From Sphaerolaimus hirsutus (taxonomy: Eukaryota > Nematoda > Chromadorea > Monhysterida > Sphaerolaimidae), in the NCBI GenBank assembly GCA_964036195.1, contig OZ038451.1:16578747-16642746 (forward strand): a stretch of 64,000 bases of DNA. Direction: 5' to 3'. Positions within the stretch are counted from its first letter, which is position 1; each line of letters opens with the position of its first letter. Under the pieces are notes generated by a model. The model was given only the letters and a program-made list of their open reading frames with translations. It was not told the origin of the DNA and searched no databases. The position numbers and the translations under genes were made by a program. Shown piece by piece: positions 41,186 through 45,318 of this stretch.

Positions 41186-44100
41186 TCATTTGGCGCTATC
41201 CTTCAGCTGAAAATCACCCAGAGAACATCTTAATTTCTCGGCAGCCATTTCAGCCGTCAAATCTCGTTGTGGCTCACACAATAATTCATAGCCAGCCATA
41301 AATTTCTTCACCGTTGCCGATCTGCATGTCAAAATATGTAATTGGCATCATTCATTGGACGATTTCTGACATTTTCAACACCTCACATCTCCAAATAACC
41401 CTACGATTTCCAAGAAGTTTCCAAGAACTTCATGTAGAGATTTTCTGTAAGCACTGGTTTATATTTCAAAGTTTTTGCGCTGGCATCAAAGGGCACATCG
41501 TTCTGGTGCTTTTCCAGCACTAGTGAGGACTAACGATGGCAAACCCCCGAGAAAAAAGTATTTAAATTTTTAAGTGTTTTTTCTAAAACTAATTTTCGAA
41601 TTTTCGAATTTTTCCCCAAATTAATTTTCGAATTTCGAATTTAATTTTCGAATTTTCAAATCTTTTCTAGCAATTTTCGAATTTTTTTGTCCAGTTTTCG
41701 AATTTTTTCAAATAATTTTCGAATTTTTTTGGAAAAATATTGAATCTGAAGCTTTAAACACATTATTTGGACTGTTTTCATATTCTTCTCAGTTTTTGTA
41801 ACCTTATTTTTACCATAATTTAGCATTAAAAATGGTGGAAGGAGTGCTACGAATTGTTGAATACGGAGTTGTCCTGCTTCTTCATTTAATGCACACATTG
41901 ACACATTTATTTCACCAACGCAGCAAAGGCAATAAAGACAACAATTTAAAAACCGGTGTCAAATAAAATATTGGCATCAAATAGAATATTGGCATCAAAT
42001 AAAATATTGGCATCAAATACCGTATTTCCTTGAATTAACCCACCCCCCCTGGGGGTCTATTACTTAGCCAGAAATATTTCGAAATCCCAGTGCTAAATTG
42101 TTTTTTTGTAAGTAACACAGATGTAAAAAATGCAACAAAAACCGCCTTTTTAAGACTCTATAGACTTATATAATAACGTAGACGGTACAAACCCTGTTCT
42201 AACGCAACACAGTCATTGTTTTGAACGTGTTTCCCAGATAACAAACCGCACAAACGTTCTCTATACACCAAATTTGGGCGCGGTATTTCGAGGGGGGGTT
42301 ATAAATTCATAGATCAAATAATGAGGGGGGGTATTTTGAGGGGGGAGGATATCTCAAGGAAATACGGTATAAAAACGGATGTGTCGAAGTCCGCCTCTTC
42401 CGCCGCGGATGACATTTCAATGTTTTTTTTTGTTACGTTTCGTTTTTTCATACGCGCCGCATATCAATTGCCGCTTTATTTAGCACGTTGAACTTAAGAA
42501 TGCGTTTTGTTGCCTTGAATTGCCTGAAAAATTCGAAAACTATTTTCGAATTTTTGAATTTTCAAATTTTTTGAAAAATAAATCGATTTTTAAGTGTTTT
42601 TTCTAGGGGTGAAATAAAAATTCGAAAATTCCGAAAAAATTCGAAAATTCGAAAATGTTTTCGAATTTTCGAATCTTTTTTGGCCATCGTTAGTGAGGAC
42701 ACAGATTTCCAAATGATATTATTGTTTTTATATGAACAGTGATCTCATTCTCATCAATGTAGATAATACTTACCTCAGCAGTGGTGGTTTGTATTCTGCA
42801 TGCAATTGCCAATAATTGGAACAGGCCTTGTCAAATTTACCTGGGGCCAATTTCTCAAGTTGACAAATAACAAGAAAAGTGATAAGCAGTAGGAAAAGCT
42901 GTGAATCAAGTTATATCATGTAAAATTGAAGTCACATGTATTTTCACTGCAAATTTACTTGTCACTTGACTTACTGTGTCATCTGACTTACACTTAACAC
43001 TTTTCCCGTCACTTGTCAAATTGTAGAATTGGCTCCCTGTTGGTGCACCCAGCCAGCCCATGCTGAAGTTTTTTGTTGAGGAATGGTAACATTTTGCATT
43101 AGCATGGTCATAATAACAAAATATTCTAATATGTGATAAAGCATATTACCTGTATGGAAATTCACATTGAAATAGGTTGTCATATGCACATAATAACATT
43201 TTCATGCACCTTGCCAAATCAGCCTTCTCTTCTGAAGTTATATTTTCCAAGGCTGGAATGTGTCTTTTGTATGGCAATATCATTGTTTCAAATGGCCATA
43301 ATGCCCAAAATGGAACAAGCGCCTGTAAAATGGTCTAGTATTTACATTTACAATTATTTTAATTTTTCTGTTTCCAGTAAGCTTTCTATTTCCAGGCAAA
43401 TTTCCGGCTTTTCCGAATGACTGTTTTCTGGCATTTCATTCTCCTAATTTCAAGCAAACTTTTCCATATTCTATTTGCAGCCGCTGACTTTTTGAAACCA
43501 TAAACCGAATGGGATTGATCCAAAAATCTATGGTAACTAACAATCCAATGATCAGTCTGCACCACAACTCTGATTTTCTTCTGCTCACCCAATTCCATTT
43601 TTGCATATGCCAATAACATGATATCATTTTGTTTGCAATGGAATTCCTTCTGGGTGCGATCTTTTGTTTTCACCAGATTTGGCAGAAAATTCGATGCCCA
43701 AATTTGACAGTGTGGGTGCGGGTTACTGCAACCAACTATTTCACCGCGATTTTCAAAAATCTGAAATGCGGAAATGTTTTTTTTTGTACAAATAGTGGTC
43801 CGTTTATCTATGTATTGTTCATCGGACGATATGAATTTATCAGATGGATATCAAAACATTTTGAAACTGACTTGCACCCAATCGAACAATTCACCCAATT
43901 CCCTCAATTGCTGCTGCCATTCAGAGATAACATTCTCAACTTCGCATAGTTCCATTGATGCCAGATGTTTGTTTGAATCGGGATGGTAGCACATAACTCT
44001 ACATGTACCAGTTATGTTCTGTGTTTTGAATAGTTGTGACCCAGTACTGGCGCCCATTCCGGAATTTGTTGTGTGACAAAAATGTGGTAGGTGATAAGAA

Positions 44101-45318
44101 AAATGAAAAAAATGAAAGTAATGTGGGAAATTCTGGTGCCGGTTCCGCAAGTGGACAAGTTAAGAGTTAAAACTTAAGAGTTGAGTAAAATGATAAATGA
44201 TAAGTAAAGAGTAAAGTTAAAAGTTAAGAGTTGAGAAAAATCATTTGTCGTTTACTCAACTCTTAACTCTTAACTTTACTCATAACGTGTCATTTGTCAT
44301 TTTACTCAACTCTTAAATTTTAACTCTTAACTTTTCCACTTGCGGAACTGGCCCCTGGTCACATTCTTATGAGGATCAGTATTTTACTCTTTCTGTAAAT
44401 TTATAAGCAGATGCAAATGAAAAACCCGTTTTATTTTTTCAAATGCCTTAGAAAAATTTAATCATGGTCATTAAATAAATGGAAAAAGAATTTTGTAAAC
44501 GTGTTTTTTCATCCCTATTTCTCACCAACGACTGTAGAGTTTTTGGGTGTCACCTACAATATTGTCCCTATCAGGTTATCACATTACATGTCACGCGACA
44601 AATTGTGGAATTGGCACCTGCCAGGTTCAGTTTTGTCATTACTCTCATCTTGTGGAAGTAAAGCTGGGAAGTCATTCGTGAATACATAAGTTCCACTGTA
44701 GTCAGGCGTTACAGCACCTGCAAGATTAAAGAGAAGATTAAATGAGTGCAGATGAATTTGGCGTGAAGACATGATAAGTGGTGGTTAAATATTTTAGATG
44801 GCGAATAGACCGTTAGAGTCACCTGACACTTCTGGAATCATTCAGTTACAGATAAAGGCTCGAAAAAATTTTTGCTAACTCAACATTCGACCGAACACCT
44901 CCAGGTTGCAAGGGGTTTTTCTTTTCCGAGGCATTTGCACATGTTTTTGCATCCTGTACGAGGAAAAAAAGAAGAAAATTAATCCGCAATTTGACGAATG
45001 AACAAAAATATCTCGCCTTTTCACACTGGCCTGGGTTCAATTACGCACCATATCAAGTGACAAGACAAGTAACATAAATGGAGAAAAGTTACAGCAAAGT
45101 GTAAAGTATCAGCTGAAAATTCATCCCGTGCGAGGGAGGGACCAATTTTCTTCAACACTTAACATGTAAGTGGTAACTTTTCTCAATCTTTGACACTTGA
45201 ATTTAACTTGACAAAGTGCGCAATTGACTCCTGTCCACGGTCTGTTAGCTCTATGCGCAGCCACGATCAACCACTCGTCCAATAAAGGATTGTAGCGCCT
45301 ATGCGGCTTGGCGTCCAT
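41186..45318 (-). CDS. GALT: Galactose-1-phosphate uridylyltransferase, 10 exons, 355 residues
   Basis: Leloir-pathway cytosolic enzyme: UDP-glucose + galactose-1-P to glucose-1-P + UDP-galactose. Exons: 45318-45231, 45030-45017, 44953-44884, 44717-44618, 44046-43872, 43760-43542, 43322-43150, 43062-43037, 42840-42774, 41321-41186. N-terminal [11 protein letters not shown] (residues 6-16), [11 protein letters not shown] (67-77), catalytic [10 protein letters not shown] (159-168; H166 nucleophile, Q168), [16 protein letters not shown] (about 218-233) and C-terminal [17 protein letters not shown] are typical. Length equals the family norm (348-379). Introns 1, 4 and 8 are MITE copies. Introns 1, 2, 3 and 8 join best as GA-AG, GC-AG, TT-AG (or GT-CA) and GG-AG; GT-AG alternatives exist but add or remove 1-8 residues. 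Ligands of both E. coli metal sites are mostly missing. The start is the first Met before the conserved HRRYNP. Confidence 0.95.
41531..42692. mobile_element. hAT-like MITE, TTCGAATTTT family, in GALT intron 9
   Basis: Ends TAACGATGGC / GCCATCGTTA with perfect target duplication GTGAGGAC (41523-41530, 42693-42700). Subterminal TTCGAATTTTCGAA repeats. It accounts for most of the 1452-bp last GALT intron and itself hosts a nested element at 42018-42369. Confidence 0.92.
42018..42369. mobile_element. TACCGTATTTCCTTGAATTAACCC element, nested
   Basis: Inverted ends TACCGTATTTCCTTGA and TCAAGGAAATACGGTA, with inner GGGGGTATTTTGAGGGGGG. Nested inside the hAT-like element of GALT intron 9. A TA target duplication is possible. 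Confidence 0.8.
42844..43036. mobile_element. Candidate introner MITE forming GALT intron 8
   Basis: In the sense of GALT the element runs GGAGCCAATTCTACAA ... AATTGGCCC, with inverted ends (GAGCCAATT / GGGCCAATT) and TTGACAAGTGAC arms. Flanking duplication is CAG(G) (43036-43039 and 42840-42843 on the plus strand as CCTG). The 196-nt intron equals the element plus one duplicated CAG. The junction that keeps the ungapped APTG...WQLH alignment is GG-AG. Confidence 0.85.
44050..44617. mobile_element. Candidate introner MITE forming GALT intron 4
   Basis: In the sense of GALT it starts GTGCCAATTCCACAATTTG and ends GGAATGGGCGC, flanked by CAG (44618-44620 and 44047-44049). The splice donor CAG|GTGCC is the element's own first base pair, and the acceptor is the duplicated CAG. 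A second family member (44136-44354) is inserted within it. Confidence 0.85.
44136..44354. mobile_element. Nested GTGCCAATTCC-family MITE
   Basis: Inverted ends GTGCCGGTTCCGCAAGTGG / CCACTTGCGGAACTGGCCC, CTG duplication at 44133-44135 and 44355-44357. Arms are AAGTTAAGAGTTA repeats. Sits inside the MITE that forms GALT intron 4. Confidence 0.85.
45034..45230. mobile_element. Candidate introner MITE forming GALT intron 1
   Basis: In the sense of GALT: GAGTCAATTGCGCACTTTG ... GTGCGTAATTGAACC, with inverted ends, flanked by CAG at 45233-45231 and 45033-45031. The 200-nt intron is the element plus one CAG. The precise-excision junction (GA-AG) restores W-T-G-Q-C-E-K; a GT-AG alternative loses the conserved Q. 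Confidence 0.85.

Follow-up and report, generated by a model that had tools for sequence, protein, structure and literature searches.

The window, a stretch of 64,000 nt from Sphaerolaimus hirsutus, carried GALT on its minus strand. The analyzed region comprised exons 1–9 and included introns 1, 4, and 8, which carried the ends of MITEs. Exon 1 (45231..45318, minus strand) started with ATG and ended in GTGGACAG. With introns 1–8 taken out, the first 318 residues matched human GALT (5in3) with an E-value of 9.8e-98, the alignment starting at residue 5 and continuing through the last residue of the fragment, and the NPHPHCQ motif was found in the spliced product. In this model introns 1 and 8 were cut at their exact borders and intron 3 at a provisional one, and the last residue, which is split by intron 9, was entered as Arg. 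The junctions of introns 1, 4, and 8 (RPWTG/Q, PGS/T, and GAPTG/K) were gap-free against human GALT. The gene was single copy, as all seven exon matches of a genome search fell within the window. At intron 3 (44883–44718, minus strand), no listed GT-AG or GC-AG pair preserved RSN together with VTPDY without gaining or losing residues; an exact join would call for TT-AG, unless the assembly contains an indel. A 26-nt exon (43062–43037, minus strand) lay between introns 7 and 8, as if an older exon had been split by an introner.

Introns 1 (45031..45230), 4 (44047..44617), and 8 (42841..43036), all on the minus strand, lay exactly where the original prediction had placed them, and the CAG duplications claimed for them were present at all three. 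Intron 1 was MITE-like, with CAG at both borders and self-complementarity of 68% over positions 4–194; as a DNA query it found no further copy in the genome. Intron 4 was a MITE of GT-AG type that started with CAG/GTGCCAATTCC and ended with GCGC/CAG. A second hairpin MITE of the GGGCCAGTTCCGC family (44136..44354), with arms of 105 nt complementary at 90% and a CWG duplication of its own, was nested inside it. Intron 4 had been described as one whole MITE, which was borne out for its ends and its CAG, but it proved to be a MITE in a MITE; the hairpin, proposed as a family copy away from splice sites, did have its duplication but sat within the intron. Intron 8 was a MITE copy whose 5′ TIR began after one extra G. 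The introns had been said to start at the first base of the MITE, which was true of intron 4 and not of intron 8, and the donor CAG/GTGCC expected in all three was found in intron 4 only, the contexts being CAG/GAGTC in intron 1 and CAG/GGAGCC in intron 8. Two other copies in the window, at 7725..7952 and 2628..2801 (the latter of the GGGCCAGTTCCGC type), had the matching CTG duplications and TIRs attributed to them, with totals of 8 and 11 mismatches, respectively, when their two ends were counted together; the reversed window gave 0 pairs.

The intron ends were scored at 21 positions against a core derived from the genome-wide copies. Intron 1 matched at 16/21 at one end and 13/21 at the other, and intron 4 at 17/21 and 14/21. 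The 5′ end of intron 8 matched at 20/21 one base further in (7/21 at the intron border itself), and its 3′ end at 18/21. The probability that a single end would match this well by chance at a given position ranged from 4e-4 to 1.5e-11.

The family was characterized by the TIR GNGCCAATTCNNCAANTGGACAAGT and a 3-bp CWG target duplication, and it was searched for in the whole genome (348 Mb, 762 contigs). There were 2034 ends (992 + 1042) with ≤2 mismatches, including those of a related GGGCCAGTT hairpin family, and 222 ends exact over a 23-base pattern (0 mismatches), both being numbers of TIR ends and not of introns; the backward control gave 0 in each case. MITE ends with CWG were found to recur hundreds of times. 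Complete copies, with ≤7 mismatches per end, ≤11 at both ends together, and identical CWG on either side, numbered 39 distinct, of which 3 lay in the window and 36 elsewhere, spread over 35 of the 79 loci sampled outside it; under the same thresholds a matching CWG pair was absent from the other 44 loci. The 79 loci (L010–L088) were drawn by similarity to intron 8 (L010–L038), as the best-listed TIR matches (L039–L068), or by hand from the TIR list with GGGCCAGTT rows excluded (L069–L088); L009 repeated a window copy, and L001–L008, which matched the nested hairpin, were left out of the copy scan. Among 42 sequences (the 39 copies and the three GALT introns), 27 formed two groups through shared stretches of at least 60 bases, mostly 72–92% identical, and 15, including GALT intron 1, belonged to neither. 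A pair of segmental duplicates (L112 and L113) differed by GA versus GG at one TIR; no coding flank was evident there, and the difference was uninformative with regard to splicing.

When the duplication was read as CAG, the first bases of the element were GT in 27 of the 39 copies, GG in 11, and GC in one, a GT share that is biased by the selection of loci; 26 of the GT-type copies were among the 36 outside the window. The tally of exact ends was less selected and covered the first 100 of the 222. It gave 39 CAG/GT, 24 CTG/GT, 9 CAG/non-GT, and 28 CTG/non-GT (Fisher p 4e-4). The spliceable arrangement, CAG/GT or CTG/non-GT, made up 67 of these 100 ends (p about 0.0009), and GT ends alone (39 with CAG vs. 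24 with CTG) gave p 0.08; all these p-values are approximate because an element can contribute both of its ends, which are then not independent observations. Such an excess of the spliceable arrangement is expected if many of the copies are introns.

The flanks of the copies were then joined by taking out the element plus one CAG. An open frame of 100 nt or more extended to each side of the joint in 15 of 26 GT copies, compared with 21.6% of 1776 CAG sites at the same loci, 8/26 on the antisense strand, 0/4 for GGGCCAGTT copies, and 2/6 for other copies. Homology was tried on 20 of 36 joined frames, which were chosen for long open frames and read only in the direction that gives the duplication as CAG, and five of the 20 (L024, L026, L050, L061, and L077) were compared with solved structures. 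Homology spanned the junction in five of the 20 frames, which belonged to mTOR, LST8, ABCB, TFB1M, and a PPP4R2-like gene. The match across the junction reached 1.8e-11 for mTOR (L026, with a two-residue gap beside the junction), 1.1e-16 for ABCB transporters (L024), 6e-8 for LST8 (L061), and 6e-5 for TFB1M (L077, again with a gap beside the junction). The curated Pfam cut-off was passed by three of the 20 frames: in L026 the FAT domain match crossed the junction, in L013 the PPP4R2 match extended 6 residues beyond it, and in L039 the best stretch of C2H2 fingers lay ahead of it, with a weak zf-met match across it. The likeness of L050 to ionotropic glutamate receptors was weak (0.3) and was left out of the count, and in 15 of the 20 frames no match above the curated cut-off was seen to span the junction. 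The donor was GC in L026 and GT in L013, L024, L061, and L077.

Judged from sequence, GALT introns 1, 4, and 8 are very probably introners, namely nonautonomous DNA transposons (MITEs) that inserted at CWG with a 3-bp duplication. This reading, already put forward in the original prediction, was upheld by the genome-wide recurrence of the TIR with CWG and by the junction-spanning homology in GALT and five other genes. Members of the repeated family made up putative whole introns in several genes, three in GALT and others in mTOR, LST8, ABCB, TFB1M, and the PPP4R2-like gene. Coincidence of element and intron borders with a restored protein was found for intron 4, for the four GT copies with homology, and for L026 with its GC donor; introns 1 and 8 showed it only as GA-AG and GG-AG introns. 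The marks of transposition, TIR and an identical CWG on either side, were present in the 39 distinct copies. In the proposed mechanism, a MITE would insert at CWG and copy 3 bp. Where the target reads CAG on the sense strand, the exon would retain its CAG, the first bases of the element (usually GTGCC) would finish the 5′ splice site CAG/GT, and the second CAG of the duplication would become the 3′ splice site. Splicing would then take out the element and one CAG and leave the protein unchanged. We infer from the restored protein that the spliceosome removes the elements, and the intron positions appear to be new in this nematode lineage. Several observations counted against the introner reading: introns 1 and 8 lacked GT at the element border, intron 1 had no other copy in the genome by DNA search, 15 of the 20 joined frames showed no junction-spanning match above the curated cut-off, the flank controls were themselves often open (21.6% for CAG sites, 8/26 for the antisense strand), and the acceptors, mostly GGCCC/CAG, were poor in T, with a mean share of 0.22 at positions −4 to −13 in the 26 GT copies. 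The T share before the acceptor was 0.5, 0.6, 0.5, 0.4, and 0.2 in GALT introns 2, 3, 5, 6, and 7, respectively.

Shifted splice sites were enumerated for GALT introns 1, 3, 4, and 8. Exact restoration of the protein required GA-AG at intron 1 and GG-AG at intron 8, and in-frame shifted pairs existed at both: a GT-AG pair displaced by +2/+5 at intron 1, at the cost of one Gln, and a GC-AG pair with the donor 3 nt inward (+3) at intron 8, adding one Ser. A second alternative at intron 8, a GT 12 bases upstream, would remove four residues conserved with human. That introns 1 and 8 are introners spliced at the shifted GT-AG and GC-AG pairs is a serious possibility, though we incline somewhat against it; it competes with the GA/GG donors and not with an introner origin. 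The U1 genes spoke in its favor. Twenty-six U1 matches were found in the genome, and 20 of the 5′ ends were read (L090–L109), of which 12 were AAACUUACCUG, seven were AAACUAACCUG, and one was divergent. The two classes differ at the base facing donor position +3, and neither pairs with A or G at +2; since both main classes (19/20) read G and U at +1 and +2, U1 offers no explanation for GA or GG donors. CAG/GTGCCA would form five Watson-Crick pairs and one wobble with the first class. The second class would favor U at +3, which fits GALT intron 6 (ATT/GTTAGT). Against the shifted sites, the exact borders were gap-free relative to human GALT at junctions 1 and 8, and GA and GG donors have published precedents, both in a copepod (PMC5714493) and GA in introners (parts of PMC9860276).

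A more distant alternative is that older, ordinary introns were present first and that the MITEs inserted later as passengers. A MITE inside an intron does exist here, namely the hairpin within intron 4. Human GALT intron 3 (c.328/329) presumably lies at a distance of about 4 nt from intron 4 of the worm gene, and human intron 9 (c.904/905) 12 nt from its intron 8; this proximity also favors older introns. However, the phase of intron 4 and the positions of introns 1 and 8 differ from those of the human introns. Moreover, where a copy is of GT type and its coding flanks show homology, as well as in intron 4, the two borders of the intron are the ends of the MITE, and the exon finishes with the duplicated CAG. 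We consider passengers in older introns very unlikely. Removal of the copies from the DNA instead of the transcript, by precise excision or programmed elimination, is more improbable still: 3-base duplications would permit exact excision, and programmed DNA elimination is known in nematodes, but the assembly contains the copies, the spliceable arrangement is over-represented, and 27 of the 39 copies start with GT when read with CAG.

The predicted folds suggested how splicing might be assisted. In 32 elements shorter than 450 nt, between 12 and 25 of the 25 leading bases were predicted to pair with the last 30, and such paired ends could bring the splice sites together. A wider scenario, which we offer as speculation and regard as rather unlikely in full, is that CWG-targeting MITEs invaded this nematode lineage and founded hundreds or more introns, that donors drifted from GT to GC, GA, and GG, that acceptors did without a polypyrimidine tract, and that the spliceosome reads these introns partly via the paired ends or by altered splice-site recognition, two U1 classes being present in this genome.

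The genome contained 56 matches to the nematode cuticle collagen N-terminal domain (PF01484) and 11 to the transthyretin-like family (PF01060, TTR-52), both of which we take to be nematode markers. The arthropod Chitin_bind_4 domain (PF00379) gave 0 matches, in a genome search in which none of the controls gave a signal. Mitochondrial COX1 had 14 in-frame TGA codons, and its AGA codons presumably sit at Ser positions, which speaks against tunicates. An ascidian host was rejected on these grounds, and a copepod host, which the GA/GG donors had suggested, was rejected in view of the missing Chitin_bind_4 domain and of the two nematode families. The host was identified as a nematode with a code 5 mitochondrion, in agreement with the features expected of Nematoda, and algae and tunicates, to which the introns had been likened, did not suffice as the sole comparison. 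By eye, the gene order on the mitochondrial contig (C762, L089) was nad2(−) nad1(−) cox1(+) atp6(+). In minus-strand frame 2 of its first ~650 bases, an open stretch recurred about every 180 bases, which suggests tandem repeats at the far end, beyond cox1 and atp6.

MITEs of the PIF/Harbinger type have a 3-bp duplication and a GG-rich TIR start, and CWG duplications occur in PIF/Harbinger, for which our literature search found no report. The present family resembled them in the 3-bp duplication and the GG-rich start, and DDE_Tnp_4, a transposase domain of PIF/Harbinger type, was abundant, with 163 matches in the genome, many of them near-identical. It differed in that the family TIR was not found within about 1.3 kb on each side of the one DDE_Tnp_4 copy examined. 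More than 100 of the matches were near-identical, e.g., C9:8961367–8961999 (flanks L110 and L111), and most of these included extra bases and about four in-frame TGA codons. The extra bases are probably introns within the transposase gene.

Introners are known from Micromonas, Aureococcus, Symbiodinium, Chrysochromulina, and others (Gozashti et al., 2022; parts of PMC9860276). The elements described in those parts share with the present ones a TIR and a target duplication, introns that arose by insertion, and splice sites split between element and duplication; the Chrysochromulina introners likewise bring their own 5′ site and recruit the duplication as the 3′ site, and some families have GC and GA donors. 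The present family differs in its 3-bp CWG duplication and its nematode host; in the main-text passages considered, PMC9860276 names copepods and no nematode. Introner elements of Amoebophrya are also similar, as inverted repeats pair the intron ends, direct repeats of 3–5 nt flank the borders, and non-canonical sites are used, but in the relevant parts of that report they show many splice motifs and share no inverted repeat specific to a family, in contrast to the one shared TIR and mostly GT donors found here (PMC7789003). In the copepod Eurytemora affinis, introns with GA and GG donors are supported by RNA reads (Robertson, 2017; PMC5714493). That animal resembles the present case in its recently gained, idiosyncratic introns, in AG preceding the GA/GG donor, and in the usual U1 5′ end; it is unlike in that no transposon was reported and that its GA/GG donors are RNA-based, while ours concern two introns read from DNA.

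No nematode introners were found in the open-licence literature, subscription papers being outside the scope of the search. The name Meloidogyne graminicola, where it appears in connection with introners, we take to be a slip for Mycosphaerella graminicola. Part of PMC10597677 uses this nematode name for what it calls a fungus with introners. In the relevant part of a survey of 104 nematode genomes, 168 new introns were reported in Caenorhabditis and a source sequence was found for none (PMC9169325); the present family points to such a source for new nematode introns. With copies recognizable both inside and outside genes, the birth of introns in a nematode can be tested directly, and the unusual splice sites offer a natural experiment in splice-site recognition. 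The type of mechanism is already known from the systems above, and the new part is its nematode host.
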